This document shows positions 876-25,905 of a DNA stretch of 47,187 bases, in pieces. The stretch is from a virus. The position numbers were made by a program, and so were the translations under genes. Positions within the stretch are counted from its first letter, which is position 1; each line of letters starts with the position of its first letter. The DNA is taken from positions 1 to 47,187 of IMG/VR virus record IMGVR_UViG_3300023063_000004. One strand, written 5' to 3'. The notes below the pieces were generated by a model. That model saw only the letters and a program-made list of their open reading frames with translations, was not told where the DNA came from and searched no databases.

Positions 876-904
876 ACTATAAACCGTTATTAACGGTTTT
901 GCAA
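876..904 (-). promoter_or_regulatory. Sigma70-like promoter with a palindromic operator as spacer
   Basis: On the minus strand: -35 TTGCAA, a 17-bp spacer that is the palindrome AACCGTTAATAACGGTT (882-898), then -10 TATAGT. It would drive the genes starting at 843, 610 and 404. The palindrome overlaps the last codons and stop of the gene 890-1189. The same layout recurs at four other places in the window. Confidence 0.75.
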
Positions 905-2996: not shown

Positions 2997-3174
2997 AATC
3001 TTTAATCCTTTGTCTAAATGTTTCGTCGGTTTCCTCGTACCACTTGTATCTATCAGACCATACGTACCCATCTTTCGGGAATGGCGATACGTCGCGTACG
3101 TAAACTTTGTATGTCGCTACAATCATTCCGTCATCGGCGTACATACGACTTAGCCGTAACAGTTCGTTGCCCAT
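2971..3174 (-). CDS. Hypothetical 67-residue phage protein
   Basis: Tyr/Asp/Lys-rich small protein in the same overlapping series. The start may be 3174 or the internal ATG at 3144, which comes just after the upstream stop; neither has a strong ribosome site. No family recognised. Confidence 0.55.
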   Translation of the reverse strand: MGNELLRLSRMYADDGMIVATYKVYVRDVSPFPKDGYVWSDRYKWYEETDETFRQRIKDYERLGKTD

Positions 3175-3473
3175 TCGTACGCATGCTCGACGGCATCCGC
3201 CAATGACACTTTAGCTAGCGTTTCCGTAACGACACGGTATTGCATCAATTCGCCTGAGAACCCATCGCCGTCTTTCCAAATTTTCCACACACCGTAATAC
3301 ATCGATGCTTCCAAGCCGCCCGCGATAAGTCCGGCGCGCAATGAGTCGTCATCAAATTGTGACTCATCAACTTCGGCAAGTACCGCATCGACGGGGCACA
3401 TGCTTTTTGGTGGCGTACGTTCCAGAATGCCAAAATCTAAAATATCACCCGTGCTAAGTCGCTTATGGTCCAT
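3150..3473 (-). CDS. Hypothetical 107-residue phage protein
   Basis: First gene behind the promoter at 3501-3529, with AGGGGT eight bases before the ATG at 3473. Acidic, with a Trp/Tyr-rich central part. It leads a run of overlapping small genes (3473 down to 2287). Not recognised. Confidence 0.7.
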   Translation of the reverse strand: MDHKRLSTGDILDFGILERTPPKSMCPVDAVLAEVDESQFDDDSLRAGLIAGGLEASMYYGVWKIWKDGDGFSGELMQYRVVTETLAKVSLADAVEHAYEWATNCYG

Positions 3474-3500: not shown

Positions 3501-3529
3501 ATACTGAACCGTTAATAACGGTTTGTCAA
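3501..3529 (-). promoter_or_regulatory. Promoter with perfect TTGACA and palindromic operator spacer
   Basis: Minus strand: -35 TTGACA, 17-bp spacer AACCGTTATTAACGGTT (3507-3523), -10 CAGTAT. The TGA stop of the terminase large subunit gene (3526-3528) is part of the -35 hexamer. Transcription would start just downstream and serve the genes from 3473 onward. Confidence 0.75.
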
Positions 3530-5320: not shown

Positions 5321-5730
5321 GGGAGTGTAATAGGCACCGCAAGGTGCTCCACCGTGACGCCCGGTATCGGTATGTCGGCATGCTCTTTCGCAAGCGCTTC
5401 GGTATCGAACACCATGGCCAATTTGCCCGGTATCGATCCTAGTGCATCACTCGAACTGATGTTGACGTATTTAACCGTGGGAGCAGGTTCGGTCATAAAT
5501 AGGTCGAACGACGATTCAGGCTTACCCGTGGTTGGCATAAATCCGCGCAGATCGTACATTAAAAATGGGTCCGCCGTATCGCCACTACCAACCGCGACAA
5601 TCATCTTGTCGGCAAAGTAGGGATGCAGGCTACGCCTGCTCAGATCGTGCGCAAGGATCTGAGCAGGTCGGCCGTCACGCGTCACGATCGGATCGCCAGC
5701 AATAGCGCGCTCAAGGTTGAACGGTTTCAT
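5317..5730 (-). CDS. MKPFNLE-type phage protein, copy 2 (137 residues)
   Basis: The start at 5730 overlaps the stop of the upstream gene and follows GGAG. It opens MKPFNLERAIAGDPIVTRDGR, a beginning shared with the segment starting at 6089, so two paralogues stand in tandem. From memory, proteins starting this way are widespread small phage proteins of unknown role. It also contains IPGKLAM, found in the gene 2547-2996. Confidence 0.7.
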   Translation of the reverse strand: MKPFNLERAIAGDPIVTRDGRPAQILAHDLSRRSLHPYFADKMIVAVGSGDTADPFLMYDLRGFMPTTGKPESSFDLFMTEPAPTVKYVNISSSDALGSIPGKLAMVFDTEALAKEHADIPIPGVTVEHLAVPITLP

Positions 5731-6764
5731 TCTTCGATCTCCGTCCAAGACTCGCTGAGAAGCATAACGGGTACTGCGCCCGGCATGGTGAACGGCGATG
5801 GATACGATGGCATGATCGTTTCGTGCTCGCGCCGCCATACAGCATGCCCGTCGGAATACAAATACACCTTCGCTCTAACCTTGACCGTTTTCATCACTAG
5901 GTCCGCATTGTGCGGCACCGCACCGGCTTGCCCATTAGCAGTGTAATGCGACACGCGGTCATTGCCTGCCAACTGTACAAGCAGGGGCAATTTAAATCGC
6001 TCATCGTACGCAACGAATCGGACCGTCTGACCGCCGCGCGTAACGGCCGCTTTGCCTGCTTTAAATGCTTCGAGATTGAATGGTTTCATTTTTGGTTCCG
6101 GTAGGGGAGGGGTTGCGATGCAACGGCAGTTGATACTGTTAAATACCGACCATTCGGCGGGACTAATGCCCCAGGGACGCGTACGAGTCACCGACCGATT
6201 CGCCTTGTCGTGCGATATCCATGCTTCAGCGCTTGCCCGTGACGCAAATTGAAATGGCTCGTTTGGCTGTAGCTGATCCATAACCGTTCGCCCGACACGA
6301 TCGATGACGTAAAAATACGCATCATTTTGAGCAATATTGAACGGCGGTAAGAGATATTGCGTAGCGGGCATATATCCCCACGAACTTCCAAAGCCATCGC
6401 TCCACGCATATTCGCGCGGCGATGAAAGCGGTATAGTCGTAAAGTCCTTATACGACGTAACGATTGGCATGTAGTGCGCCGCAATGTACTCGTGGGCATG
6501 ACTGACAAGTGCAAAACGTTCTGGACGCTTGACACCGATGTACGCGATACAAAACATGCCGCCCGAATCGTGAACAATAACAATATCAGCATGTGCCGTT
6601 GCAATTTCATGGCCTGAAACTAGCGCCCATCGTTCGGCTAGTTCTTTCGAGGAAAAGCGTAGAGCATGCCCCGTATGGTGTTGTAACGGAATACGATCCC
6701 CATCAATTAAAATCCAGGGCCGTGGCGTACGTGAACCATCTTGATATGCGGATAATTTCATCAT
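5727..6764 (-). CDS. 345-residue fusion: duplicated domain plus MKPFNLE-type domain
   Basis: The start at 6764 follows AAAGGAAC. Residues 1-225 contain two related units, each a VID/LID strand ending in an aromatic-Ser-Ala/Glu-Trp helix (ALRFSSKELAERW and FQFASRASAEAW). Without any stop, the frame then enters an MKPFNLE domain at residue 226, whose ATG at 6089 has only a weak site. So this is either a true fusion, or two proteins from one frame with an internal start. Its paralogue follows at 5730. Role unknown. Confidence 0.7.
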   Translation of the reverse strand: MMKLSAYQDGSRTPRPWILIDGDRIPLQHHTGHALRFSSKELAERWALVSGHEIATAHADIVIVHDSGGMFCIAYIGVKRPERFALVSHAHEYIAAHYMPIVTSYKDFTTIPLSSPREYAWSDGFGSSWGYMPATQYLLPPFNIAQNDAYFYVIDRVGRTVMDQLQPNEPFQFASRASAEAWISHDKANRSVTRTRPWGISPAEWSVFNSINCRCIATPPLPEPKMKPFNLEAFKAGKAAVTRGGQTVRFVAYDERFKLPLLVQLAGNDRVSHYTANGQAGAVPHNADLVMKTVKVRAKVYLYSDGHAVWRREHETIMPSYPSPFTMPGAVPVMLLSESWTEIEE

Positions 6765-6789: not shown

Positions 6790-6818
6790 ATCCTAAAGTA
6801 TTATTAACGGTTCGTCAA
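6790..6818 (-). promoter_or_regulatory. Promoter with half-degenerate operator spacer
   Basis: Minus strand: -35 TTGACG, 17-bp spacer AACCGTTAATAATACTT (6796-6812; left half intact, right half diverged), -10 TAGGAT. It would drive the gene starting at 6764 and followers. Loss of one half-site predicts weaker repression than at the perfect copies. Confidence 0.65.
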
Positions 6819-6878: not shown

Positions 6879-7106
6879 TCAGAGTTTGGATTCGACGGCG
6901 GATACGGCCGCATGGAAATTATCGACAACCCATCGTTCACCCGATGCGAGCGCTGCAACGATGCGCTCCACAAGGTCAACATGATCGGCTGGCACGAGTA
7001 CCGCGTTACCGGCCGGGTAGGTAGCGTCGGTCGTTGCGGTATCTTCAGTCGTCTTATCGGCTGTACCTGCGGCGGCATCCGCTGCTGCTTGTTCTTCTGG
7101 CGTCAT
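6879..7106 (-). CDS. Hypothetical 75-residue phage protein
   Basis: Start follows AAAGGACC. The N-terminal third is Ala/Thr/Asp-rich and probably disordered; the C-terminal part is a helix rich in Val and Ala. It is the last gene before a strong terminator, downstream of the tailspike. Not recognised. Confidence 0.7.
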   Translation of the reverse strand: MTPEEQAAADAAAGTADKTTEDTATTDATYPAGNAVLVPADHVDLVERIVAALASGERWVVDNFHAAVSAVESKL

Positions 7107-7122
7107 GGTTGGTCCTTTCTCA

Positions 7123-7139
7123 AATAGTTATTAACAGTT
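7123..7139 (-). promoter_or_regulatory. Degenerate operator copy without clear promoter hexamers
   Basis: The 17-mer AACTGTTAATAACTATT (minus strand) matches the repeated palindrome at most positions and lies in the gap before the 7106 start, but the flanking hexamers (AGTGTG and TGAGAA) do not look like -35 and -10. It may be a relic or a pure binding site. Confidence 0.4.
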
Positions 7140-7151
7140 CACACTATAGCA

Positions 7152-7709: not shown

Positions 7710-10469
7710 TTAGACGATCGTGAGAACGCCGTTGTTATTCCAAAGTGACCCAGCAACACTAGGCGCGGCCGTTGGGAATTGTGTTTTATCAACCCATGGC
7801 CCTGCGCTCGGGTTAAACGGCTCTAGACGATCCATGCTCATCATCGGGCACACGATATAAAGTACATCGCAGTTGCTCGCGTTGTTGTAGCTCGTGTACT
7901 GAGTCCGAGTGTCTTTAACGCCTACGTTCAAGAAAGCTTGAAAACGGTTTGATACGAACGTATCAGTACTCGGGAATGTCTGCGGCGAAGCGTACCCGTG
8001 TAACGATGCGGACACGGTGGACGAGCTTGCAGCGGCTCGCTTAAACCCCATAAACATATAGCGATGCAGTTGCTCTAGGGGCCGTGCGACATTCAGGTAT
8101 GCGGCCGCCAAAGGTATCGCTAACTCAGCCTTACCGTCTGCAGCTGTCGGCGTTATCTTATATACAACGGGATTTGTTCCGCAAATCTTGATAAAAAGAT
8201 CATCTGTCCAAGTTGCATCGAGCCCTTCAGCCGCCAATGTCGTAAGCGTCAATGTGCCCACGCTAGCCGTAGCGGCGGCTAGATTGAAAAGATTTCCGAC
8301 AGAGCAAATGGCCTGTCGATTCGCTAGATCCCACTTTTTAGCAGACGTGTCGCGCGGATCAGTAGGGGAATATGCAAACCCAGGCGAAGGCGCATTGGTA
8401 GCATAAACACCGACATCGACCAAACCGAGGTTACCTTGCATACGTGAAATATCAGAATTCGATGCGCGCATCGAACCAAAAAGGGTTCGAATACTAGCGA
8501 CTTTTGCCGTTCCACTACTAACTGGCATAACTTGAAAATTATCTGGCGACATATCCTGCCACATAGCCAGATCACCTAGATAGAATTGATATTTCCGCTT
8601 GATTGCCCCACTCGGGAACATGTTGTCTGGCAAGTAATAGGCTGTTGACGTTGCAGAAACGACGGAAGGATCTTTACCCAGATTAACCGTTGATAAAGAA
8701 TTATAGGAAAGCCGCCAGCGCGCCTCTCCTATCTGTTCAGTTGTAGAGCTATTCCTATCAATCGTAATGCCACCTACGCTAGCGGCATACGAATAGACGC
8801 CACCAGACATCGGATCTGCTGCGTTGCTAACAGTACCGGATGGGGTAATGCTTGGGTTCAGGTAGTTGTTGTCTACCTGAAAGTATTCATACGCTCCGAA
8901 TCCCGTGTGGTCGCGAACATGTGCTACTGCCACCCCACCATTGTGATTCGCCCATAGCTCGGTACCTATGAAATAGTTTGCGAAAGCTCCATTTCCCGCC
9001 CCGCCGCCGCCACCTTGCGTACTCAGATAGTCTTCCGAGTTCTTTTTATAATAAATTTGCGCGAGTCCTGCTTTCATCTGGTTCCGAACGGTGTAGATGT
9101 GTCCGTCCATCGAGTCCCAAACGCCTGCGAACTTACCCCCATCGCCGAAGCAATTAGAAAATCGCACAGTGGCATGGTTTTGTGTTTTATAGCAGCAATG
9201 ACCAGGCGCAAACGTCTTGTAATAATCTGGCGTGATCGTCGGATTGGACAAATCAAGATCAATCACTGCGCCGCCATTTGTTACATCACGGCCAGCACCA
9301 GCCAACACCATCAAGCCGTTAGCGATAAGATTTTCCTTGCTCCAGTCGGTCTGAGATGCTCCGCTATTCGCTGAGAATACCTGCAAATACATATTTTCAA
9401 CTTCACAGTTTTGAATTGTTGACCAGTTGATAACCGATTCACAATCTCTCGTCGTATCCCAGACGGTAGAACCACTCACTGTGGTTACAGGAATCCCAAG
9501 CGTGTTGCAATTCTTTGCGTAGAAAGCAACATGCGCCCGTAAGCTATGCTCGCAAAAAATGAATTGGCACGGCGTTAGGTTCGGCGTTTCAGTGCGGATC
9601 GACACTGAGCGAGCAGGGAAATAAGCGGTTCGGTAATTCGCTTGGCAGTAGGCAAAGAACTGATTAAGCTTGGTGAAATAGTCGTTCCCAGGCGAATTTA
9701 CGACTGCATCACCAAGCCAGTCGTACACCGATAGCAGATCACCGCCCTTCGAATTCAGGTCGCGGACTACCGATCCTGTTGGTAGTCCTGGCGTTTGGAA
9801 AGCTTTTGCTCCCATACCGGTAAATTGTGCAAGTTGCGATGAGCTACCTTTTACTGAAGTTGCACCGACGACACCGGTAGGGTTATATAGCGCAACTTCA
9901 GTGCCGGTAAAAGCGCTCAATGCAGTCGATGTCGCGGGATCGATAGTCGCGGTAATTGCAGCGGTCGTGCTAGGCCATACGCCAGCCGCCTTTGGACCGT
10001 ACCGCAATCCGGCACTTATATCCAATGCGTATTGACCATTAACGCCTAGACCTGCGGCCGGTACGCCACTGGTAAATATATACAGTGGCAACGCGTTTAA
10101 AACGGCGAAGGCGGTTTCAAGTGCTGGCAATGGTGCGATCTCCGTAACGAGTGCGCTAAGAGCAGTTTGTAATGCTGCAACCGTTGTCTCAAGCGCGGGC
10201 AATGGTGCAATTTCAGTAGTAAGACTATTTACCGCTGTTTGCACCGCATTTAACGCTGTTTGAATAGCCGGAATTCCAGCCACGTCACTTTCTAACGCGG
10301 TAACAGCCGTTTGTACCACGTTAATAGCCGCCTGCAACGTATCCACCTGAGCGATACCGGCGGTCAATGTCACGATTGCGGCCTGAATGGCAATTAGCTG
10401 ATCTGCCGCAGACGGAGCTAAGGTAGGATTACCACCACTGCTGCCCGTACCGATGTCGGTATAACTCAT
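7710..10469 (-). CDS. Tailspike or large tail fibre protein
   Basis: 919 residues, start behind GGGGATGAG. Residues 20-120 repeat a heptad-rich pattern (LQTALxALxxEIAPLPALE, twice), a trimeric coiled-coil stalk. The middle, rich in Asn, Gly and aromatics, looks like a beta-helix depolymerase of the pectate-lyase type. It would bind or cut host surface polysaccharide. It contains DLDLSNPTITPDYYK, also found in the gene 16641-17261. It is isolated from the other tail genes and is bracketed by terminators. No catalytic residues could be assigned. Confidence 0.8.
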   Translation of the reverse strand: MSYTDIGTGSSGGNPTLAPSAADQLIAIQAAIVTLTAGIAQVDTLQAAINVVQTAVTALESDVAGIPAIQTALNAVQTAVNSLTTEIAPLPALETTVAALQTALSALVTEIAPLPALETAFAVLNALPLYIFTSGVPAAGLGVNGQYALDISAGLRYGPKAAGVWPSTTAAITATIDPATSTALSAFTGTEVALYNPTGVVGATSVKGSSSQLAQFTGMGAKAFQTPGLPTGSVVRDLNSKGGDLLSVYDWLGDAVVNSPGNDYFTKLNQFFAYCQANYRTAYFPARSVSIRTETPNLTPCQFIFCEHSLRAHVAFYAKNCNTLGIPVTTVSGSTVWDTTRDCESVINWSTIQNCEVENMYLQVFSANSGASQTDWSKENLIANGLMVLAGAGRDVTNGGAVIDLDLSNPTITPDYYKTFAPGHCCYKTQNHATVRFSNCFGDGGKFAGVWDSMDGHIYTVRNQMKAGLAQIYYKKNSEDYLSTQGGGGGAGNGAFANYFIGTELWANHNGGVAVAHVRDHTGFGAYEYFQVDNNYLNPSITPSGTVSNAADPMSGGVYSYAASVGGITIDRNSSTTEQIGEARWRLSYNSLSTVNLGKDPSVVSATSTAYYLPDNMFPSGAIKRKYQFYLGDLAMWQDMSPDNFQVMPVSSGTAKVASIRTLFGSMRASNSDISRMQGNLGLVDVGVYATNAPSPGFAYSPTDPRDTSAKKWDLANRQAICSVGNLFNLAAATASVGTLTLTTLAAEGLDATWTDDLFIKICGTNPVVYKITPTAADGKAELAIPLAAAYLNVARPLEQLHRYMFMGFKRAAASSSTVSASLHGYASPQTFPSTDTFVSNRFQAFLNVGVKDTRTQYTSYNNASNCDVLYIVCPMMSMDRLEPFNPSAGPWVDKTQFPTAAPSVAGSLWNNNGVLTIV

Positions 10470-10546: not shown

Positions 10547-10798
10547 TCACGGCGCAATAGCGACATAGTTGCGGCCATTGACACTAAAACATTTATCACG
10601 CGCCGTAATGTGGCGCAACTGCCATTGCGATACGCAGACAGTTTCAAGGTCATTCATTTCGACATACCAAACCTTTTCAGTATGACCGCTTGCCATGTGG
10701 ATGCGAGTGTCAAAATTTAACAGTGTGCCTATTGCTCCTAACAGTTGACGATTGAATGTAACAACGACAACGACCTTTTTCCCGATCTCATATTTCAT
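10547..10798 (-). CDS. Hypothetical 83-residue phage protein
   Basis: ATGA overlap with the end of the terminase small subunit gene. Strand-rich (IGKKVVVVVTFN), with no metal or catalytic motif. It is the last gene before a terminator; co-transcribed with terS. Confidence 0.65.
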   Translation of the reverse strand: MKYEIGKKVVVVVTFNRQLLGAIGTLLNFDTRIHMASGHTEKVWYVEMNDLETVCVSQWQLRHITARDKCFSVNGRNYVAIAP

Positions 10799-11598
10799 GA
10801 CTCGCCTCGCATAAGTTCCTGATAGGTACGGCTGGCCAACAATGGATCATCGCTGATGACGACAACTTGCCCAGGTGGCGCAGCGGGTAATGATCCGGCC
10901 GGTAAGATAGGGTCTTTATAAATGCCGTGAATGCGCCCTAACAGTTCGACCATCTTATCTTGATCACGTGTTTTCAATTCAATGCCGTATTGGGTCTGCT
11001 TGAAACCGGCATACAGTTTCTTCGCCGCACCCTTGATGAATCGTGTGTCTTTAATCGTCGGTACAACATGACCCTCACCTAAGCACTTAGGACACTCAGG
11101 GTTCGGACTGTTATTAACGATGTACCCATAGCCGCCCTCATCGGTCGGCAAGTCCTGCGGTACTGGCGCATTGCCCTGACTTCCACCTAACTCCCAATCA
11201 CTGTACAACTTCGCATTGCGGTCCATCACCTCGGCGCATCGAAATGCGAACTCTGTTGGCGATGCCCAATGATAACGATGCCCGATGCCCGAACAGTGTC
11301 GACAGTTCCGAACTTCAATAGCGGACAAATCATGAGCATTTGCCAAGGCAAGGGAAGTGATGTGATCAATCACTGCGGCACGATCGATCACTACGGCTTT
11401 ACTCACTTCGTCCTGTAATTGCTCGTACCTTTCCAGAACAAGGCTATTACGGCTCAACTCGCTCGCCTTGCTCCATATCGTTGCGTCTTTCCAATGCAAA
11501 CAGTTATACGCTTGCCGATACGCTTCGCTCTTATTGCCCGTTTGCGCCCAATGCAGCACGAACGCTAATTGTCTGCCCGTTAATTTACGCACGATCAT
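10795..11598 (-). CDS. terS: Terminase small subunit with zinc-binding insert
   Basis: 267 residues, start after TTAGGA. The N-terminus (KLTGRQLAFVLHWAQTGNKSEAYRQAY) is the helix-turn-helix start typical of Terminase_2 small subunits, which recognise the packaging site. Two DnaJ-like knuckles, CRHCSGIG near residue 98 and CPKCLGEG near 168, form an inserted zinc module. The C-terminal half would bind the large subunit, whose gene lies about 5.6 kb downstream. A LexA-like box precedes the gene. Confidence 0.85.
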   Translation of the reverse strand: MIVRKLTGRQLAFVLHWAQTGNKSEAYRQAYNCLHWKDATIWSKASELSRNSLVLERYEQLQDEVSKAVVIDRAAVIDHITSLALANAHDLSAIEVRNCRHCSGIGHRYHWASPTEFAFRCAEVMDRNAKLYSDWELGGSQGNAPVPQDLPTDEGGYGYIVNNSPNPECPKCLGEGHVVPTIKDTRFIKGAAKKLYAGFKQTQYGIELKTRDQDKMVELLGRIHGIYKDPILPAGSLPAAPPGQVVVISDDPLLASRTYQELMRGES

Positions 11599-15552: not shown

Positions 15553-15916
15553 AATATCTCGCAAAGGCATCAACGATAGACTGCCGATAAATTAGAGCAG
15601 GATCGTTACCTTTAAATGCATGCCATTGGCCTGAGCCGATCTGCGTCCGACACTCGCCGGGACTAGTAATAACTCGAACGACCCACGGACCGCGCGCTAC
15701 CAGCATGCGCGGATGTGCTTTAAATTCATTTCGTTGTGCGGCAAGTACCAGACGTAATGCATCGATGCTGTGAATGGATGGTATGCCGCGATATGTGCCA
15801 ATACGCCCTTCACAATCAAATACCTGAACCGCGCCGTGCGATAATTTCACAGTATCAAAAACTGCACTAAGCGCCTTGTAGTCGTCCAACAATTCAGGCG
15901 GTATGGTCGTTAGCAT
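15533..15916 (-). CDS. Hypothetical 127-residue phage protein
   Basis: The start at 15916 follows GGGGATAAAA and lies inside the end of the regulator gene. Mixed helix and strand with a central VFDCEGRIGTYRGIPS segment. No domain recognised. It is co-transcribed with the Cro/C1-type regulator. Confidence 0.6.
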   Translation of the reverse strand: MLTTIPPELLDDYKALSAVFDTVKLSHGAVQVFDCEGRIGTYRGIPSIHSIDALRLVLAAQRNEFKAHPRMLVARGPWVVRVITSPGECRTQIGSGQWHAFKGNDPALIYRQSIVDAFARYYEYITS

Positions 15917-16148
15917 TTTTATCCCCAAATACCAAATAGTCAATTGATACGCCGAGCACGACCGATATATTTTTCAGTGTCGACATGAGCGGATTAACCG
16001 TACGGTTCGCTTCCAAATATTCGTACGTGTTGGCCGCAATGTTGCACTTTTTAGCGGTCTGCCACGATCCGTAACCCTTCGCCTTACGTGCCGCTCGTAT
16101 TCGTCCGCCCATCGTCTGGGAGTCTCGCTCCGCCCGCTCTTGTGTCAC
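15894..16148 (-). CDS. Cro/C1-type helix-turn-helix regulator, about 84 residues
   Basis: The core RIRAARKAKGYGSWQTAKKC, then NTYEYLEANRTVNPLMSTL, then LGVSIDYLVFG is a full XRE-type HTH followed by the usual closing helix. The start is uncertain: GTG 16148 has GGGGTT at good spacing, while ATG 16112 gives less overlap with the gene 16084-16302. It has no C-terminal effector domain. It is a candidate for an early-to-late switch protein; target sites are unknown. Confidence 0.75.
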   Translation of the reverse strand: MTQERAERDSQTMGGRIRAARKAKGYGSWQTAKKCNIAANTYEYLEANRTVNPLMSTLKNISVVLGVSIDYLVFGDKNANDHTA

Positions 16149-16302
16149 GGTATAACCCCGTTGGATGTTGTTCAACGGCGCGATGCCACGCGAACCAACC
16201 GGGTTCACCTTGCCGTTTAAATCGATTAAATAGAACCCCATCATCGCGCCGCGCGTACTGTCGGTCGCGTCCGTTGCCAGTTGTGTAGATGGGGGCTGTC
16301 AT
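16084..16302 (-). CDS. Hypothetical 72-residue phage protein
   Basis: The ATG at 16302 starts 1 base after the preceding stop (TAACATG). The sequence, rich in Arg, Gly and Trp, is basic and could bind nucleic acid. Its end overlaps the regulator gene in another frame, which lowers confidence. Confidence 0.5.
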   Translation of the reverse strand: MTAPIYTTGNGRDRQYARRDDGVLFNRFKRQGEPGWFAWHRAVEQHPTGLYRDTRAGGARLPDDGRTNTSGT

Positions 16303-17518: not shown

Positions 17519-17587
17519 TTAGATGCCTGAAGTATCGATTTCACCGCTGTTAAACCAATCAACAAGTGCCTGAATGATGCGTTTCAT
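17519..17587 (-). CDS. Micro-ORF, 22 residues
   Basis: The ATG at 17587 follows TAGGAGACAG, a good ribosome site, and is the first start after the promoter at 17612-17640. The peptide is amphipathic (MKRIIQALVDWFNSGEIDTS). It may be a real micro-protein or a leader. Confidence 0.5.
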   Translation of the reverse strand: MKRIIQALVDWFNSGEIDTSGI

Positions 17588-17611: not shown

Positions 17612-17640
17612 ATAGTAAACCGTTAATAACGGTTTGACAA
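17612..17640 (-). promoter_or_regulatory. Promoter with perfect palindromic operator spacer
   Basis: Minus strand: -35 TTGTCA, spacer AACCGTTATTAACGGTT (17618-17634), -10 TACTAT. It lies between the terminator of the TetR-like gene and the micro-ORF, and would drive the long run of small genes from 17587 to 14457. Confidence 0.78.
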
Positions 17641-17680: not shown

Positions 17681-17995
17681 TTACGGCGCAGACTGCAATG
17701 CTTTTATCTGCCGTTCCACTCGTTTTGTCAGTTCCGGCGACATAGTCGGCAGTTCGTACATAGCTGCACATTGCGCCAGCGTCTTGGCATCCCCATCGAC
17801 ATGCGCCGCTGCTATCACTTCGGCCCGCATACCCTCACGCCCGTCGAAGTAGCGATTGATCAAGCCGTCAGTAACGCCACATGCGCGTGCAAGTGCGGCA
17901 CGAGTGAGCTTTTTGATACCCTGCGTCTTGGCAATGATGTAAGCCGCCTCCAATAGTTGTTTTTTACGCGTTGTCGCGTCCATTCGTTCAGCCAT
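17681..17995 (-). CDS. TetR-like mini-regulator (DNA-binding domain only), 104 residues
   Basis: Residues 5-50 (TTRKKQLLEAAYIIAKTQG, then LTRAALARACGVTDGLINRYF) have the form of the TetR N-terminal domain, with the helix-turn-helix ending in the usual aromatic Y-F before a glycine. The large ligand-binding half of TetR proteins is missing; only about 50 further residues follow. A degenerate copy of the repeated palindrome lies upstream at 18009-18025. It is the leading candidate for the protein that binds the promoter-spacer operators; this is inference. Confidence 0.75.
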   Translation of the reverse strand: MAERMDATTRKKQLLEAAYIIAKTQGIKKLTRAALARACGVTDGLINRYFDGREGMRAEVIAAAHVDGDAKTLAQCAAMYELPTMSPELTKRVERQIKALQSAP

Positions 17996-18008: not shown

Positions 18009-18025
18009 TATAGTTAATAACAGTT
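18009..18025 (-). promoter_or_regulatory. Operator copy upstream of the TetR-like gene
   Basis: AACTGTTATTAACTATA (minus strand) matches the repeated palindrome with changes mainly in the right half. The flanking hexamers in the standard positions (CCGACC and GGCGAT) are poor, so it may act as an autoregulatory site for readthrough or a weak promoter. Confidence 0.5.
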
Positions 18026-18037
18026 GGTCGGAGCATA

Positions 18038-18529
18038 TCATAGGGTGCCCGGTCCTGTACAGAAACAAGCGTCCGCCCCATCCGCAATAGCTAGTTCCAT
18101 AAAGGCCAATTGCGCGCGCTCATGCTCCGTACCGCTAAATTGCCAATCTTCCGGCTTCATTTCACGCAAGACCGTCTGCGCCACAAGCGATCCGACCATA
18201 TGATCACGGATAAGCGTCGGACGCCAGCCGATCAGATCCGGCGACTTGAGCACTTCATTAACGGCCGCACTTGTATTGCCCAGGCCGAACCTGACTAAAC
18301 GTCCGTCCTTATCTTTCAATGCGCCGCTATTGTTGCGAAATAGACGCACACCTTTACGCGGTGCTTCGAGCGTTACTAGATCCTGTTGCCGTGCTTCACT
18401 ACCCGGCTTGTGGTGCTCGCCGGATGTCTGGTAGTCCATCGATAGCGGACCTGTGCCCAGGTGATGTTCAAGGTCTAGTAATGCTTCCATCGGGATATGC
18501 CACTTTGCCGCCCAGGTACGTAGTTTCAT
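18038..18529 (-). CDS. VRR-NUC domain nuclease
   Basis: 163 residues; ATGA overlap with the upstream gene. The order SEARQQ (near residue 44), RNNSGA (near 66), SPDLIGW (near 96) and REMKPEDW (near 122) fits the VRR-NUC fold, a PD-(D/E)XK relative with Holliday-junction or flap activity. It probably resolves replication or recombination intermediates. Residues 1-40 look like a short extension. Confidence 0.82.
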   Translation of the reverse strand: MKLRTWAAKWHIPMEALLDLEHHLGTGPLSMDYQTSGEHHKPGSEARQQDLVTLEAPRKGVRLFRNNSGALKDKDGRLVRFGLGNTSAAVNEVLKSPDLIGWRPTLIRDHMVGSLVAQTVLREMKPEDWQFSGTEHERAQLAFMELAIADGADACFCTGPGTL

Positions 18530-18807
18530 TTGACCACCGACAGCCGTACACGTTCCTGCATGGATGGGCGAGCGGCGCGGCGTTGGCGCGGACTGGCGCG
18601 GCCGTACCCTTCGGCCTCACGTAATAACGGCGCAGGATCGGGCGGTATTACGATATCAAGCGCTTTAATCTGCGTATCCAGTTCGGCAAGCTTGAGCATG
18701 CCCGCGTTGTATTGATCTGGATTTTTGAAGGTTTGCGCGATCTTATATTTTAGCTGGCGGCGTAACGTCAATAAGTGCTTGACCAGCGTATCCCGTGCTT
18801 TAGTCAT
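18526..18807 (-). CDS. Hypothetical basic helical protein, 93 residues
   Basis: The start at 18807 (MTKARDTL) follows GGAAGTC and overlaps the helicase end by 8 bases. Lys/Arg/Leu-rich, with helices in the first 60 residues and a basic tail (RRAARPSMQERVRLSVVK). It sits between helicase and nuclease, so a replication accessory is plausible. Confidence 0.65.
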   Translation of the reverse strand: MTKARDTLVKHLLTLRRQLKYKIAQTFKNPDQYNAGMLKLAELDTQIKALDIVIPPDPAPLLREAEGYGRASPRQRRAARPSMQERVRLSVVK

Positions 18808-20551
18808 AACTGACTTCCATTTCGTTATTAATGGTTGTGATAATACCACGGGCATTAAGGTCCGCAATGATCTTCTCGCGCAATGCGGTGCCGTCCGATT
18901 CGTTTAGGGTCTTTGCAGCAAGCACATCTATGCCGAACGTCAAATAAAACCGCTTGTAGTTCACTTGGTTGCCTGCATCAGGGTACGATCCCGCCCACCA
19001 TGCCATGGCGTCCCGTAAGTGATATTGTGCCCGTTGACGGTTGCGATGGTTTGCGATGAACGGTAGGCGCGGCACACCGTACGGTACGACCGGCTCAGCA
19101 TCGATACGTGCAATTTCACCGCGATACTTAGCGAGCAATAACGGATCGATTAGGGTAATGTCACCATCAACCGTATTTGCGCCGGATCGATCCGAAGGTA
19201 ACGGCGGTGCAGTTCCGCAGTAGGGGCACTCTGTAAAGAACCGTTCGTATGGTTTGGCGCATTTGACATTCAGACATACGCGCATCGGTATGCCGTCCGA
19301 CTTGCCCCTCGACTGGCGGGTCGCAAGCTTCCATACGCGCGGCTTATCGGGCGGCCCTTCGTGACGATAAAAGTTACCAGCATGATCGAAGATGTATGCA
19401 AACGGCTTACCGCTATTTTCTATAAAATATTTGCGTTGTTCGACGGTGTAGGTATCCCAGGCACCGGCAAGTAACTTACTGATCATCAGACGTAGCGCGC
19501 GGCCCCACTGTTGCGAGTACAGCGAAAAACTGGCGGTAGGTCTTGCAAAACTTACGCATTCTATGGCAGGCAAATCGAACCCTTCGCCAAATAGATCGAC
19601 GTTCACAAGTTGCAATAATTCTCGGTTGCGGAAACGCTTGATGATCGCGCGACGGTCCGAATCTTCCGTATCACTCGTGACAAGTGCGGCCGGTACGCCA
19701 GCTAAATTAAATGCGGCGGTAATTTCAGTAGCGTGTGCAATATCGACAGCGAACGTAACGCCTAGCCGCCCCATCGCATATTTGATGTAGGTTTGTACAA
19801 CATCACCAACGATGCTATTAGATGCGTGAACGGCGTCGCGCAGCTGCGACATGTTGTAGTCACCGTCTGCCGCGATCTTGACGCCCTCTAGATGTAGATC
19901 TTTAGGAGGTATCGCATAGACTTTATAGTCTGTCAGATATGCGTTATCAATCAACCATCGCATCGGCGGACCTTCGACCAACACATCCGCAATACCATCA
20001 CCTTCACGCCCTAATGACTTACCGTCAGCGCGGATCGGTGTAGCAGTGGGTAACAGTCCGATTGCATTGGGGAACATCGCGCGAGCGCGCCCCCACTTGT
20101 TATCACGTAGCACGTGATGCGCTTCGTCTATATGAACCATGCCGACTTTGGCCAGCCAATCGCTTAATACGTCATGACGGCGCACGATCGTATCAACGCT
20201 TGCCACGCGCCAGGGGGACCGGGCATTGTAGAATGTGCGTCCTAGCTCATCCATGTGCGCGTCGACAATGCCGCGTATCGTCTTTTGTGGCGCAATGATG
20301 TCGTGCGGAATATCCTCGCGCGCTAACTGTATGGACATTTGCCCGACAAGTTCGCTACGGTGCGCCATTGAGCAACCGCCCGCTAGGTGCGGCTTACGCG
20401 GCCTAACTATATGATCTTTGGCGATTGATCCCATAACAACGGTCTTGCCGCTTCCCGTTGCACTCTGAAACATGACATCTTCGGCCCCGTTATCCCATGC
20501 GGCATTGGCGCTATCTTTAATTTCTTGCTGGAAGCCGCGTAAAACACTCAT
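18800..20551 (-). CDS. DEAD/DEAH-box (SF2) helicase with zinc motif
   Basis: 583 residues. Walker A SATGSGKT (30-37), DEAH box IDEAHH (141-146), TATP (169-172) and motif VI QQWGRALR (347-354) give a complete SF2 helicase of the type II restriction/recombination-like class. A C-x5-C and CxxC zinc site follows (425, 431, 442, 445). It would unwind DNA in phage replication. The upstream region is shared with a divergent gene and an operator. Confidence 0.92.
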   Translation of the reverse strand: MSVLRGFQQEIKDSANAAWDNGAEDVMFQSATGSGKTVVMGSIAKDHIVRPRKPHLAGGCSMAHRSELVGQMSIQLAREDIPHDIIAPQKTIRGIVDAHMDELGRTFYNARSPWRVASVDTIVRRHDVLSDWLAKVGMVHIDEAHHVLRDNKWGRARAMFPNAIGLLPTATPIRADGKSLGREGDGIADVLVEGPPMRWLIDNAYLTDYKVYAIPPKDLHLEGVKIAADGDYNMSQLRDAVHASNSIVGDVVQTYIKYAMGRLGVTFAVDIAHATEITAAFNLAGVPAALVTSDTEDSDRRAIIKRFRNRELLQLVNVDLFGEGFDLPAIECVSFARPTASFSLYSQQWGRALRLMISKLLAGAWDTYTVEQRKYFIENSGKPFAYIFDHAGNFYRHEGPPDKPRVWKLATRQSRGKSDGIPMRVCLNVKCAKPYERFFTECPYCGTAPPLPSDRSGANTVDGDITLIDPLLLAKYRGEIARIDAEPVVPYGVPRLPFIANHRNRQRAQYHLRDAMAWWAGSYPDAGNQVNYKRFYLTFGIDVLAAKTLNESDGTALREKIIADLNARGIITTINNEMEVSYD

Positions 20552-20564
20552 CGTTAATTCCCTA

Positions 20565-20593
20565 TTGCTAAACCGTTAATAACAGTTTAGCAT
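20565..20593. promoter_or_regulatory. Divergent promoter region with one palindromic operator
   Basis: Plus strand: -35 TTGCTA, spacer AACCGTTAATAACAGTT (20571-20587), -10 TAGCAT, facing the gene at 20630. On the minus strand the same palindrome is flanked by ATGCTA and TAGCAA, facing the helicase gene. One site could thus control both replication operons; the minus promoter looks weaker. Confidence 0.7.
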
Positions 20594-20629
20594 ACGTTCC
20601 GTAGCAGCAAACAACCAAAAGGAAAATGT

Positions 20630-21733
20630 ATGACACCCTCCCTCATGTTTTCGTTTCCGTACACCGTCGAAGCCCGTACCGCTATCGATGCTGTTGCGGA
20701 CCATTTTGGCTTGAAAGTGCAGATCATGTCGGACGTATTGGAATCCGAAGTCGCACGCGTTGCAGCGGCATTCGCTAACGTCACACCGGCCGGACTGCCG
20801 CCAGAGCCTGATGCGCCGGTTACGCCGGTTAATACCGCACCGCCCGCCGATTTACCTCCTTCACCGCCAGCAGGCGGTATTGATGTCGACTCGACCGGCC
20901 TGCCATGGGATATGCGCATCCACTCGAAGCCAGCTAGCAAAGGCGACAAGACTGGTATCTGGCGCAAAAAGCGCGGCGTAACGGTCGAAGAGACAAAGCG
21001 TGTCGAATCGGAACTTCGCGCCATCGGAAATATCGGTGCACCCGTATCGCATGCAACGCTTGCTGCGTCGACTGGCAATGTCGCGCCAAAGGGTGATAAG
21101 AGTAACGCCATCACTTACGCCCATAACAAAGCGGTCGAAGTGTGCGGCGCGATGCCCTTCAGCGAATCGACGTTAAACGACTTACTTTCCGGGAAGATGA
21201 CGAATCTCACGACCGAGCAATCCGACTGGTATGCTGCGTACTTTGCGCGGCGCGGCGTTGAATACCGCAACTACGTCAATAACAGCGCGGCCGTAACGGT
21301 TGAACTCGATGCAACGCGCTTGCCGCACGATCCGAGTATGCATGTGTCGCCGCCCGTGAAAGATGATTTGGGTATCTGGGTACAGCGTACGGATGTAACG
21401 CCACAAGCCAAGCTTGAAACGATGGCCGAAGCGCGTACCGTAACACCTGGATTACCACCGGCACCGCCCGCGCCGCCAGCCACGCAACCCGGTCTGCCAC
21501 CTGCACCACCACAAGTAACACCCGCTGAAGCAACCCAATCATTCGTGCAGTTCATCCAATGGATCGCGCAGAATAAAGTTGGCGGACGTATCACCGACAC
21601 GATGACGGCGGATCTGATGAAAACGCATGGCTTTGTTGATACGACTGGCTTTGGTAGCGTAGCGCTTGTATCAGGTCGCGCGGATTGGTTGCCGTTCTTC
21701 GTTGGCGAATTCCAGAAGATGGGTGCTATCTAA
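20630..21733 (+). CDS. LPWD-repeat replication-associated protein, 367 residues
   Basis: The start at 20630 follows AAAAGGAAAA. Proline-rich linkers join a unit with GLPWDMRIHS and IWRKKRGV (near 88-120) to a degenerate second copy, RLPHDPSMHV and IWVQRTDV (near 227-255). The C-terminal 60 residues are helical. From memory, LPWD-type units occur in phage proteins beside recombination and replication genes. It is the first gene of the plus-strand replication operon, probably DNA-interacting; function not proven. Confidence 0.65.
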   Translation: MTPSLMFSFPYTVEARTAIDAVADHFGLKVQIMSDVLESEVARVAAAFANVTPAGLPPEPDAPVTPVNTAPPADLPPSPPAGGIDVDSTGLPWDMRIHSKPASKGDKTGIWRKKRGVTVEETKRVESELRAIGNIGAPVSHATLAASTGNVAPKGDKSNAITYAHNKAVEVCGAMPFSESTLNDLLSGKMTNLTTEQSDWYAAYFARRGVEYRNYVNNSAAVTVELDATRLPHDPSMHVSPPVKDDLGIWVQRTDVTPQAKLETMAEARTVTPGLPPAPPAPPATQPGLPPAPPQVTPAEATQSFVQFIQWIAQNKVGGRITDTMTADLMKTHGFVDTTGFGSVALVSGRADWLPFFVGEFQKMGAI

Positions 21734-21734
21734 A

Positions 21735-22874
21735 ATGGCTGATGAAAGCCCGTTCTTATTGCGGCTTTCAGGTGCCGCATCATGGGTTCGATGTGCGGCG
21801 AACCCCATGATGAACAAGCGCCCCGAAGCGCTACAGTTAGAGGCGCTAGGGGATACCACCGTACGTGACGAAGGTACAGCGATGCATTGGGCGGCGCAGA
21901 CGTTGGCGTCCGGTATTGATGCGGTTGTGGTCGGTACGGTTGCGCCTAACGGCATCGCCATTGATGATGAGTTGCTGGACGGCGCACTGTACTACCTTGA
22001 TGTATTGCGTGAGTATGACGTACCGAAATGGGAGATCGAACAGCAGTTAAGCGCGCCATCGATTCACCGGCAATGCGGCGGCACGCCAGATGCGTATGGC
22101 CTTAACTATGCGCGTAAGCATGTTTATGAGGCGGATTTAAAAGGCGGATATGTGAACGTCGAAGTATTTCCGAATGGTCAACTGATCGGCTACAGTTCGG
22201 CGATATTCGATAAGTATCCTGAAATTGATGATAATTGGAAAATAACGTTCGTCATCATTCAGCCGCGCTCCTACCATCGTGACGGTCCCGTACGCGAATA
22301 TACGACGACGTTCGGCATGTTGCGTGAGCATTGGAATGCATTGCGCGGTGCGGCGGAACGTGCAGTGAGTGCCAATGCGCCTGCCACGGCGGGGGATCAA
22401 TGCACGAACTGTAATGCACGTCATGTATGTTCGGTTGCGCTTGAGGCGAGCGCTAATATGTGTGAGCTATCAGGTGAACCGGAAATTGTGGCACTTACTG
22501 ATGCTGCGCTCGACTATGAATTGTTGCGCTTGCAAGCGGCGGAACGTCTCATTAAGGCGCGACTTACCGGTCTTACATCGTACGCGGCGCACATGATAAA
22601 GCGCGGCGCATCATTGCCGCATTTCGTAATGGAGCGCGGTTCCGGCCGGTTGCATTGGGTCGAAGGAAAGGAAAAGGAGGCAATAGCGTTAGGTGATATG
22701 TTCGGTAAAAACCTGCGCAAAGATGAAAAAGCAATAACCCCGCTTCAGGCATCAAAAATTATCGATCCGGCATTAGTCGCGGCATACTCGGAACGTAAGC
22801 CCGGCGAAGTCAAGCTAACGCGATTCGACGCTAACAAGGTCGCTAAAGCATTTTCTAATTTAAAAGTGGAGTAG
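21735..22874 (+). CDS. DUF2800-type PD-(D/E)XK nuclease
   Basis: 379 residues; the ATG at 21735 comes 1 base after the preceding stop. The core GTPDAYG followed by EADLKGG gives the D...ExDxK catalytic pattern of Cas4/RecB-like nucleases, and CTNCNARHVC (about residues 223-232) may hold a metal or iron-sulfur site. DUF2800 proteins are usually found beside DUF2815 proteins and phage polymerases, as here. Likely role: end processing in recombination-linked replication. Confidence 0.85.
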   Translation: MADESPFLLRLSGAASWVRCAANPMMNKRPEALQLEALGDTTVRDEGTAMHWAAQTLASGIDAVVVGTVAPNGIAIDDELLDGALYYLDVLREYDVPKWEIEQQLSAPSIHRQCGGTPDAYGLNYARKHVYEADLKGGYVNVEVFPNGQLIGYSSAIFDKYPEIDDNWKITFVIIQPRSYHRDGPVREYTTTFGMLREHWNALRGAAERAVSANAPATAGDQCTNCNARHVCSVALEASANMCELSGEPEIVALTDAALDYELLRLQAAERLIKARLTGLTSYAAHMIKRGASLPHFVMERGSGRLHWVEGKEKEAIALGDMFGKNLRKDEKAITPLQASKIIDPALVAAYSERKPGEVKLTRFDANKVAKAFSNLKVE

Positions 22875-22877
22875 CAC

Positions 22878-23993
22878 ATGGAATTCACAACCCCCGTTGG
22901 AAAGCTTGTACAAGGTGATTGCTTTAAAGGCAGTACGACGAATCAAGATGGCACGCCGCGTACGATCAAGACTGGCCCAAATAAGGGCAATCCGACGACA
23001 TCGTATTTCTTCGCTGTCGCGTATCCGAAGTTGCTTGCGAACGGTGCGCCCAATGAGCCGTTTTATAAGCTGTATCGCGAAATTATCGATGTAGCTCGCG
23101 CCGGGTATCCGCAACTTTTCACCGGCCCCGTCGACGGCTTTACCGGTAAGCCAGGAAGCGTGCGCCCCACGATGTCATACAAGGTCATTGATGGTGATGG
23201 CGTGGATGAGAATGGCGTACAAAACAATACGAAGCCGGGCTTTGCCGGTTGTTACGTGATTCGGTTCGGCGGTCAATATGCGCCAAAGTGTTTCGAACTC
23301 GGCAAATTCCGCCTCGACCAACAATTGCAAGATCCGGCGCGCGTCAAAAAGGGATATCTCGTTTCGGTATCGGGTACGTGTGAGCCGAACATCGGATCGG
23401 ACAAGCCCGGCGTGTATATGAATGGCAATCTCGTTTGCTTGGTTGCGACGTGCCCGGATTCCGAAGTCATCACGAATGGTCCCGATGCTGATGCTGCATT
23501 CAAGGGATTGGACGTTACGGCATTGCCAGCCGGATACGTTGCAGGTGCTACGGCCGCAACTGCACCCGGTTTGCCGCCTGCCGGTGGATTACCTCCCGCC
23601 CCTGCGTCGACCGCGCCGGGTTTGCCGCCAGTAACAGGCGGACTGCCACCGGCACCAGCACCGGCCGCATCGTTACCGGCACCGCCAGCCGGTCCGCAGT
23701 TGACGCCAGCGGGCATCGCGTCCGGGTATACCTACGATCAGTACAAAACGGCGGGATACACGGATGCAATGATGATCGAAAAGGGCTTTCTTGCGCCGGT
23801 CGTACCGAATCATGGCTTCGTTGAAAATGCAGGCGGACTGCCACCGGCACCAGCACCGGCCGCATCGTTACCGGCACCGCCAGCCGGTCCGCAGTTGACG
23901 CCAGCGGGCATCGCGTCCGGGTATACCTACGATCAGTACAAAGCGGCGGGCTACAATGACGACCTGCTCAGGTCGAAAGGTTTCTTAGCTTAA
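22878..23993 (+). CDS. DUF2815-like ssDNA-binding protein with duplicated tail
   Basis: 371 residues, start after GTGGAG. Residues 1-200 resemble the DUF2815/ssDNA-binding fold (KGNPTTSYFFAVAYPK, then RFGGQYAPKCFELG). The rest is Pro/Ala-rich with two copies of a YTYDQYKxAGYxD unit ending KGFLA. The tail repeats are identical at DNA level over 113 bp. The protein probably coats ssDNA and recruits partners through its repeated C-terminal units. Confidence 0.78.
   Translation: MEFTTPVGKLVQGDCFKGSTTNQDGTPRTIKTGPNKGNPTTSYFFAVAYPKLLANGAPNEPFYKLYREIIDVARAGYPQLFTGPVDGFTGKPGSVRPTMSYKVIDGDGVDENGVQNNTKPGFAGCYVIRFGGQYAPKCFELGKFRLDQQLQDPARVKKGYLVSVSGTCEPNIGSDKPGVYMNGNLVCLVATCPDSEVITNGPDADAAFKGLDVTALPAGYVAGATAATAPGLPPAGGLPPAPASTAPGLPPVTGGLPPAPAPAASLPAPPAGPQLTPAGIASGYTYDQYKTAGYTDAMMIEKGFLAPVVPNHGFVENAGGLPPAPAPAASLPAPPAGPQLTPAGIASGYTYDQYKAAGYNDDLLRSKGFLA
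23635..23747 (+). repeat. 113-bp direct repeat, copy 1 (copy 2 at 23830-23942)
   Basis: Within the ssDNA-binding-like gene, 113 bp recur without a single difference 195 bp (65 codons) downstream; beyond that the flanks differ. Identity at silent positions points to a recent in-frame duplication or ongoing gene conversion. Confidence 0.9.
23830..23942 (+). repeat. 113-bp direct repeat, copy 2
   Basis: Second copy of the repeat at 23635-23747. It encodes the last proline-rich linker and YTYDQY segment of the protein. Confidence 0.9.
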
Positions 23994-24000
23994 CGACTTA

Positions 24001-24018
24001 GCCGCCCTTCGGGGCGGT
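24001..24018 (+). other. UUCG-capped hairpin before the polymerase gene
   Basis: CCGCCC, loop TTCG, GGGCGG: a very stable hairpin in the gap between the ssDNA-binding gene and the polymerase start at 24037. No T-run follows, so it is not a standard terminator. It may mark an mRNA processing or stability point or modulate polymerase translation. Confidence 0.65.
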
Positions 24019-24036
24019 TCTCAATTGGATATCCGA

Positions 24037-25905
24037 ATGAAACGCCCCTACGCATGGTTTGATCTTGAGACGTATCGTAATTATTTCCTTTGCAAATTTC
24101 TGTTCGAAAACCCCATAGGCGCAGTCAGTAAATTTACATTTCTCGATTACATGATGGTGCCCGGTACGGTGCTTGATCGTCAGGCTATCTTGAATATTTT
24201 GGCGCACTATACCGTTATTGGTTTTAATTCTAACGGGTATGACGTTCCTATTCTATCGCTTGCCCTTGCTGGCGCGAACAATCAAACACTTAAGGATGCC
24301 AACGATTTAATTATCTTGCGCGGTATGAAGCCATGGACGTTTTATGAACACTTCAATGTTCAATCACCTGCATGCTTAGATACGATTGATATTTTTGAAA
24401 TATTGCCCGGTGTCCGTATTAGCCTAAAGGCGTACGGCGGTATCAGTCACGCCAAGACAATTCAGGATTTACCTGTCGATCCGATGTCGGACATTAGCCC
24501 GATTCAGTATTACCCCATGTCGCTCTATTGCGGCAATGATTTGACAACTACACATCACCTTACCCAGATTGCTATTGAAAAAGAATGGCTTCCGTTGCGC
24601 GAGTTGATTAGTGCTGAAATTGGCATTGATGTGCGTAGCAAATCGGATGCGCAAATAGCCGAGGCGATCACCAAATCGAAATTGGGCTATAAGCCGGTCG
24701 TTCGCCAAATACCCCATGGGTTTCAATTTACCTATACCGCGCCAGCGTGCATCAAGTTTCAAACCGAACAGCTAAACGAAGTGCTTCGCATCGTTCAATT
24801 TGCGCCATACAAGGTACTTTTAAAAGACGAAGATTCGGACGAAGTTGATGAGAACGGTAAGCCGATTAAATCGGGCATTAAGATGCATAAGGACATTGCT
24901 AAAATTCGTGTCCATATTGGCAAAGGGGTTTACAAGTTCGGTTCGGGCGGACTGCATAGCCAAGAAAGTAGCGTGTTCTACTTATCGGATGATGACTATG
25001 AAATATCGGATGATGACGTAGGGTCATTCTATCCAAAAATTATCATTACGCAAAAACTATACTCCAAAGAGTGCGGCCCGAATGAGCTGATCATTTACAC
25101 CGGCACCTACACGGAACGGATGGCGGCTAAAGTTGCCAAACGTAAGAAAGAGGCCAATAGTAAAAAGATTGTGCTTAATGGAAAGTTCGGAAAACTAGGC
25201 AGTCGGTATAGTTTTTTCTATGCGCCTGAGTTGCTTATTCAAACGACACTTACCGGCCAATTGATGCTGCTAATGTTGATCGAAGCGTTAGAAAGTGCAG
25301 GTATCGAAGTCGTCTCGGCTAATACGGATGGCATCGTCACACGTTGCCATAAGTCACTTACCGGCATGCGTGAAATGATTATGCGCATGTGGGAATATCA
25401 GACCGATATGGAATTAGAGAAGACGCGATATAAGGGTATCTATTTCCGTGACGTTAATAATTACTTTGCGATAACCACGGACGGCGAAGTAAAGCGTAAA
25501 GGCGTATTCACACCGCCCGAAGTAGGAAGCGGCCCGAGTAGCAGCAAGGCCCCCGCACGTGAGATATGTTACGACGCGGTTATCGCATACGTGCAGCACG
25601 GTACGCCGATCGAACATACGATTTACAAGTGCCGCGACATTCGAAAATTTGTCAGTGTTAAAAACGTTAAAGGGGGCGCGATCGGCCCGGATGGCGAGTT
25701 GCTAGGTAAGGTTGTTAGATGGGCATACCGGCGCGACTACACGGGCATCATCACATCTAAAACGAATGGCAATCAGGTTGCTGATAGTACCGGCGCGTGG
25801 CCTATGATGACATTGACCGATAGCATGCCGGATTGGATCGATTATGAATATTATGTTCGGCATGCATATGATGCGTTACGTAAGGTAGGACTAAGTGAGT
25901 TTTAG
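24037..25905 (+). CDS. Compact family B DNA polymerase with 3'-5' exonuclease
   Basis: 622 residues. Exonuclease motifs: FDLET (D9, E11), GFNSNGYD (N64, D69) and YCGNDLTT (D168). Polymerase motifs: A DDDVGSFYP (D327), B KKIVLNGKFG (K377, N381) and C SANTDG (T430, D431, replacing the usual DTD). It is much shorter than cellular family B enzymes, like other small phage versions. The ATG at 24037 is preferred over TTG 24025. Last gene of the plus-strand operon; its end overlaps the convergent gene by 15 bases. Confidence 0.9.
   Translation: MKRPYAWFDLETYRNYFLCKFLFENPIGAVSKFTFLDYMMVPGTVLDRQAILNILAHYTVIGFNSNGYDVPILSLALAGANNQTLKDANDLIILRGMKPWTFYEHFNVQSPACLDTIDIFEILPGVRISLKAYGGISHAKTIQDLPVDPMSDISPIQYYPMSLYCGNDLTTTHHLTQIAIEKEWLPLRELISAEIGIDVRSKSDAQIAEAITKSKLGYKPVVRQIPHGFQFTYTAPACIKFQTEQLNEVLRIVQFAPYKVLLKDEDSDEVDENGKPIKSGIKMHKDIAKIRVHIGKGVYKFGSGGLHSQESSVFYLSDDDYEISDDDVGSFYPKIIITQKLYSKECGPNELIIYTGTYTERMAAKVAKRKKEANSKKIVLNGKFGKLGSRYSFFYAPELLIQTTLTGQLMLLMLIEALESAGIEVVSANTDGIVTRCHKSLTGMREMIMRMWEYQTDMELEKTRYKGIYFRDVNNYFAITTDGEVKRKGVFTPPEVGSGPSSSKAPAREICYDAVIAYVQHGTPIEHTIYKCRDIRKFVSVKNVKGGAIGPDGELLGKVVRWAYRRDYTGIITSKTNGNQVADSTGAWPMMTLTDSMPDWIDYEYYVRHAYDALRKVGLSEF

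Follow-up and report, generated by a model that had tools for sequence, protein, structure and literature searches.

The window analysed here, that is the whole virus record of 47,187 bases, belongs to a tailed phage endowed with genes for tail sheath, baseplate and head. Its replication genes are arranged in two divergent operons: on the minus strand the helicase gene is followed by those of an endonuclease and of a small TetR-like protein, whereas the plus strand carries a gene without assigned function and, downstream of it, the remaining replication genes (Table 1). In the early region, genes resembling those of the terminase large and small subunits (3526–5145 and 10795–11598, minus strand) are located away from one another as well as from the head genes; a 919-aa ORF (7710–10469, minus strand) has no match in PHROGs or Pfam.

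The gap of 78 bp between the helicase start at 20551 (minus) and the start of the first replication gene at 20630 (plus) contains GCTAAACcGTTAaTAACaGTTTAGC, a 25-bp operator palindrome (20567–20591, centre 20579) in which 11 of 12 pairs are matched. This palindrome, to which attention had been drawn by a first, sequence-only reading of the window, is real: its arms of 13 nt (20566–20578 and 20580–20592) are 92% complementary and it ranks first among all centres of the 47-kb window, an equally good palindrome being present in one of 20 whole-window shuffles. The operator core is found at the same place, with at most three mismatches, in all ten phages of the operator clade; compensatory pair changes among these ten divergent sites do not go beyond chance.

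Table 1. Genes, operator copies and predicted promoter elements in the window
Feature	Position	Strand	Remarks
Operator copy	881–899		promoter TTGCAA-N17-TATAGT (minus), before ORF 607–843
Operator copy	3506–3524		promoter TTGACA-N17-CAGTAT (minus), before ORF 3150–3473
Weaker operator copy (6804)	6795–6813		promoter TTGACG-N17-TAGGAT (minus), before ORF 5727–6764
Weaker operator copy (7131)	7122–7140		between TATAGT (minus) and start of ORF 6879–7106
HTH_3 repressor-like protein	15894–16244	minus	matches phage repressor families; second regulator in early region
Operator copy	17617–17635		promoter TTGTCA-N17-TACTAT (minus), just downstream of TetR-like gene
TetR-like protein, 104 aa, candidate repressor	17681–17995	minus	phrog_8723; TetR_N above cut-off
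Weak operator copy (18017)	18010–18024		22 bp before TetR-like start codon
Endonuclease	18038–18529	minus	phrog_93
DNA helicase	18800–20551	minus	phrog_16; ResIII / Helicase_C
Weak operator copy (18828)	18821–18835		helicase gene 3′ end
Presumed helicase ribosome-binding site	20563–20560	minus	AGGG, by eye
Replication-operon promoter (predicted)	20565–20593	plus	TTGCTA 20565–20570, 17-bp operator 20571–20587, TAGCAT 20588–20593
Shared −10 element (predicted)	20588–20594	both	plus TAGCAT, minus TATGCT, 5-bp overlap
Helicase-operon promoter candidate	20618–20589	minus	TTGGTT 20618–20613, N18, TATGCT 20594–20589
Presumed ribosome-binding site of plus-strand gene	20620–20623	plus	AGGA, by eye
First gene of replication operon	20630–21733	plus	phrog_11133; function unknown in PHROGs
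Remaining replication operon	21666–25905	plus	exonuclease (phrog_69, DUF2800), Gp2.5-like ssDNA-binding protein (phrog_7011), DNA polymerase (phrog_1252)

The operator family and its candidate regulator

When up to three mismatches are allowed, the window contains four copies of the 19-bp core AAACCGTTAnTAACGGTTT (centres 890, 3515, 17626 and 20579), the mean of 100 shuffles being 0.01, and GTTAnTAAC is found eight times against an expected mean of 0.77; a clustering of palindromes that makes no use of the motif yields, as the only cluster of the window, these same four sites. The operator sites other than the divergent one precede early minus-strand genes (890, 3515 and 17626, and the weaker 6804, 7131, 18017 and 18828), while two other matches to the core, at 11114 and 30074, are located within genes and look incidental. 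It should be noted that the ORF caller used to establish site context is crude, so that some promoter sites, such as 890 and several divergent sites, were called intragenic. The copy preceding the TetR-like start codon could possibly serve the autoregulation of this gene, and the weak copy at the helicase 3′ end has better counterparts in G001, G005, L044 and Psp6. Directly after the operator-promoter that lies just downstream of the TetR-like gene, and ahead of another small gene, a 22-codon ORF was recognized by eye (17519–17587, minus strand), which might possibly be a leader peptide.

Five relatives, whose helicases are 59–65% identical to that of the window, contain 10, 8, 11, 8 and 6 copies of the 15-bp operator centre with at most two mismatches and not a single match of the reversed control pattern, and a scan with alignment A2 led to further operator-bearing contigs. 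The 15-bp form is absent from G006, Psp6 and Silvanus; G007 has two matches of it, but also one of the reversed control, and a search for palindrome families detected no operator family in G007, L048, Silvanus (L006) and L014 (G006). A DNA search in named phages returned short matches only, the helicase being among these. The divergent operator of G001, ATCGTTACTAACGAT (G001:C1:27242-27256), is intermediate between the motif of the clade and that of Psp6.

At 22 of the 32 sites with no more than one mismatch, drawn from six phages, the operator core is located inside the 16–18-bp spacer of a sigma70-like promoter, whereas with shuffled flanks such sites numbered 4.04 on average and at most 9 (200 shuffles); the test required a score of at least 8.5, allowed only spacers of 16–18 bp, left out the sites of G007 and was run on a set from which the window site 6804 is absent. 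Thus, most of the strong sites have the operator in the spacer of a promoter; the 21 sites with two or three mismatches displayed no promoter enrichment (mean 6.50 vs. 6.48).

As to the protein that reads these sites, the 104-aa product encoded in the helicase operon matches TetR_N with 33.9 bits against a Pfam cut-off of 24. In its structure model (pLDDT 83) two more helices follow the first four, and the Foldseek matches listed for this model are mainly TetR-family entries, although the best E-value is only 8e-3. Members of the TetR family possess a C-terminal ligand-binding and dimer domain of usual length; nearly all the PDB TetR proteins among the matches listed have 164–208 residues, and the 104-aa protein is too short to accommodate such a domain. 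The function of phrog_8723 is listed as unknown.

The TetR-like gene is present downstream of the helicase in all five operator-rich relatives, with 50–56% identity, and this co-occurrence makes the 104-aa protein the likely regulator of the operator as judged from the sequences compared; the palindrome of the divergent gap would then most likely be bound by this small TetR-like repressor of the phage itself. That the operator belongs instead to another regulator, namely the HTH_3 protein or a protein of the host, seems unlikely. It is true that the window encodes an HTH_3 protein related to phage repressor families and that more distant phages possess TetR homologues without this operator. 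Indeed, all ten records examined contain homologues of phrog_8723, among them G006, G007 and Silvanus, in which the operator family was not found, and L048 has a homologue by tblastn, yet no operator family was found in it, so that a TetR homologue does not imply the operator. On the other hand, the HTH_3 gene has weak, 30%-identical matches in only two of the five relatives that carry the operator, the remaining three being without a match, as opposed to five out of five for the TetR-like gene, and the HTH_3 protein was accordingly set aside as the less likely candidate.

The case of Psp6 bears on the same alternative. The TetR-like homologue of this phage is 37% identical, and its genome contains a palindrome family of its own, ATCGTAAnTTACGAT, with six copies, no reversed match and no occurrence in the window. 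Of the Psp6 copies, three are found in the divergent gap, at the helicase 3′ end and immediately after the TetR-like gene, respectively, and the same three landmarks are marked in the window by the sites 20579, 18828 (weakly) and 17626. Hence, the operators of Psp6 and of the clade differ in sequence but have in common the length, the centre, the half-site ends and the 15-bp register, as expected if a phage regulator and its site co-evolve. This apparent co-divergence of operator and TetR-like protein is the best evidence that the latter reads the site, albeit confounded by a change of host: since Psp6 has another host, its different operator could also be explained by a host regulator.

Promoter geometry at the divergent site

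The plus-strand promoter of the window, TTGCTA-N17-TAGCAT, has its predicted start at ~20600. Its hexamers, described as good in the sequence-only reading, are present as described but modest, matching the consensus at 4 + 4 positions (8 of 12), and a consensus promoter scan of 20300–20800, these hexamers included, returned nothing that reached the threshold. The helicase-side candidate, TTGGTT-N18-TATGCT, weak in the window and clear in the relatives, has a predicted start at ~20582, within the operator and 18 bp away from that of the opposite strand. Both predicted leaders are ~30 nt long and each contains a presumed ribosome-binding site. Since shuffles of the 78-bp gap often reach its promoter scores (p = 0.46 for the replication side and 0.895 for the helicase side), neither promoter is provable from the window alone.

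The divergent site was therefore considered in 11 operator-bearing phages, window included. The −10 box of the best helicase-side promoter ends 37–41 bp before the start codon in ten of them (27 bp in L036), and its −35 box is TTGATG, TTGATA or TTGAAG in nine, the exceptions being the window (TTGGTT) and L036 (ATGATT). In the relatives this promoter reads TTGATG-N17-TATnAT, its −10 overlapping the opposite −10 and the operator lying over its start site. The overlap of the two −10 boxes amounts to 4–5 bp in 9 of the 11 phages (5 bp in the window) and the predicted starts are 15–23 bp apart in the whole set. After removal of L039, which is nearly identical to L041, the top-scoring promoters of the resulting ten non-redundant phages overlap by at least 4 bp at their −10 boxes in eight cases, as opposed to 1.38 on average and 6 at most in 300 shuffles; their summed promoter score is 179.5, while no shuffle went beyond 168. 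The two misses are L036 and the window itself, scored with a 2-bp overlap because two helicase candidates tie, the other of which gives 5 bp. Because of shared ancestry, evident from the 71–90% identity of the divergent gaps to each other, these phage counts are not independent. L042, a short contig without helicase match, did not enter the divergent-site comparison, L015 and L016 were scanned for sites and helicase only, and a replication-gene start of G005 that had been placed at a wrong, shorter ATG was disregarded.

The palindrome, its repeats, its conservation, the geometry of the promoters and the co-occurrence with a TetR-like gene are thus established directly. They uphold the idea that one operator is common to two divergent replication operons, but modify what had been proposed as to how the promoters overlap. 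The predicted promoters do overlap and mutual exclusion is to be expected, but it is the −10 element, and not the spacer, that the two share; consequently, the operator is placed asymmetrically, within the spacer on the replication side and over the predicted start on the helicase side. Likewise, the site is not a lone switch node, as had been surmised, but, judging from the repeats and the relatives, one member of a phage-wide early-gene regulon.

The position of the operator within the spacer invites the alternative that the TetR-like protein activates from there in the manner of MerR, or plays a dual role by which the replication operon is favoured and the helicase operon shut off. The operator does fill the promoter spacer at 22 of the 32 good sites and, according to PMC12825309, SoxR activates one side of the soxS/soxR bidirectional promoter and blocks the other. 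However, MerR proteins are described in the same paper as working on incorrectly spaced promoters, whereas an optimal spacing of 16–18 bp was found here (17 bp in the window, in scans that allowed only 16–18 bp) in place of an over-long spacer, and several −35 boxes are near consensus, so that an activator is seemingly unneeded; this mode of action is very unlikely.

Highly improbable is also the arrangement put forward in the sequence-only reading, in which two promoters on opposite strands use the same palindromic spacer and compete fully. Palindromy does provide the spacer with hexamer-like flanks on the minus strand too (ATGCTA/TAGCAA), but these match the consensus at only 3 + 3 positions, lack the T at the last −10 position and are missing from the divergent sites of the relatives, in which TTGATG-N17-TATnAT represents a better and conserved candidate for the helicase promoter. 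Furthermore, the RNA would begin at ~20558, downstream of AGGG, and would thereby lose the helicase ribosome-binding site. It is scarcely credible that the palindrome serves as a replication origin or initiator site and not as an operator of transcription, for although it sits between replication genes and near the turn of the cumulative GC skew, the skew turns where the genes change strand and the same site precedes many early genes in promoter register.

Proposed mode of action and known systems

Having weighed these alternatives, we consider it probable that the site combines a bidirectional promoter of the sigma70 type, whose two directions share one −10, with an operator bound by the 104-aa TetR-like protein that the phage itself encodes. 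In the mode of action that we infer, as regards protein–DNA binding, start sites, direction of regulation, timing and promoter competition alike, the host RNA polymerase would read the replication operon or the helicase/nuclease/TetR operon early in infection, when the TetR-like protein is presumably scarce, and on a given DNA copy it would serve either operon, never both at once. With the accumulation of the TetR-like protein from the helicase operon, a dimer would come to occupy 20567–20591 and block both promoters, that of the replication operon from inside the spacer and that of the helicase operon by covering the start site; the protein would also damp the other operator-bearing early promoters and, weakly, its own gene. 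The net result would be a Cro-like or Aca-like feedback, and a negative feedback on early and replication genes is indeed the likely role of the system, if binding, sign and timing are as presumed.

A tyrosine integrase (PF00589) was found in none of seven records, all 14 control genomes being positive, so that a CI-like immunity switch is less likely. Somewhat short of an even chance, and hence tentative, is the more general proposal that a minimal TetR protein, deprived of the ligand-binding domain, acts on the early genes of a phage clade in which no tyrosine integrase is detectable, as a Cro-like master brake, the main target of which would be a bidirectional promoter where a single operator controls two replication operons through two simultaneous mechanisms, occupancy of the spacer on one strand and of the start site on the other. 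If true, this would be a natural example, conserved among phages, of a single repressor and a shared −10 balancing the two halves of the replication machinery, and it would predict for phrog_8723 a function with a directly testable operator. No phage TetR regulon of this kind is described in the literature searched, most subscription papers lying outside that search.

Lambda Cro is an early-made repressor that damps early promoters from operators located in divergent promoters. The phage TetR-like protein, putatively early-made as well, would resemble it in damping early promoters and in having an operator in a divergent promoter, but differs in its protein family, in its single dispersed operators and in that no tyrosine integrase was detected. 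With the TetR-family repressors it shares the TetR_N match above the curated Pfam cut-off and a palindromic candidate operator, whereas its 104 residues leave no room for the usual ligand-binding domain.

The Aca repressors of anti-CRISPR operons are reported (PMC9410906) to act at inverted repeats within core promoters, and scrambling these repeats mostly abolishes repression. Similarly, the TetR-like gene belongs to the helicase operon and an inverted repeat lies in the core promoter of this operon, so that here too a small HTH protein is encoded in the operon that it putatively regulates; unlike the Aca proteins described there, it has a TetR-type N-terminus, many early-region operators and replication genes under its presumed control.

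Bidirectional promoters, defined by divergent starts 7–25 bp apart, are reported by Warman, Grainger and colleagues (PMC10268837, PMC12825309) to have a near-symmetrical shared −10 and starts most often separated by 18 bp. The site under study has the same overlap of opposite-strand −10 boxes, the same 18-bp start spacing, a value here predicted from sequence, and presumably the same exclusive binding of RNA polymerase. PMC12825309 further indicates that competition for RNA polymerase becomes apparent only if transcription in one direction is strong, that the spacer-binding activator SoxR can directly block the divergent start and that little work has been devoted to the regulation of bidirectional promoters; in the light of these reports on SoxR and competition, a spacer-plus-start operator layout is mechanistically plausible for coupled control. 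In contrast to those promoters, the phage starts are predicted, the layout is kept across a clade, a −35 box is found on both sides and an operator occupies one arm. Finally, in the distant L014 (G006), which is without this operator, TTGACA boxes on both strands flank closely spaced −10 boxes at ~5930–5980, so that the back-to-back promoter may predate the operator.
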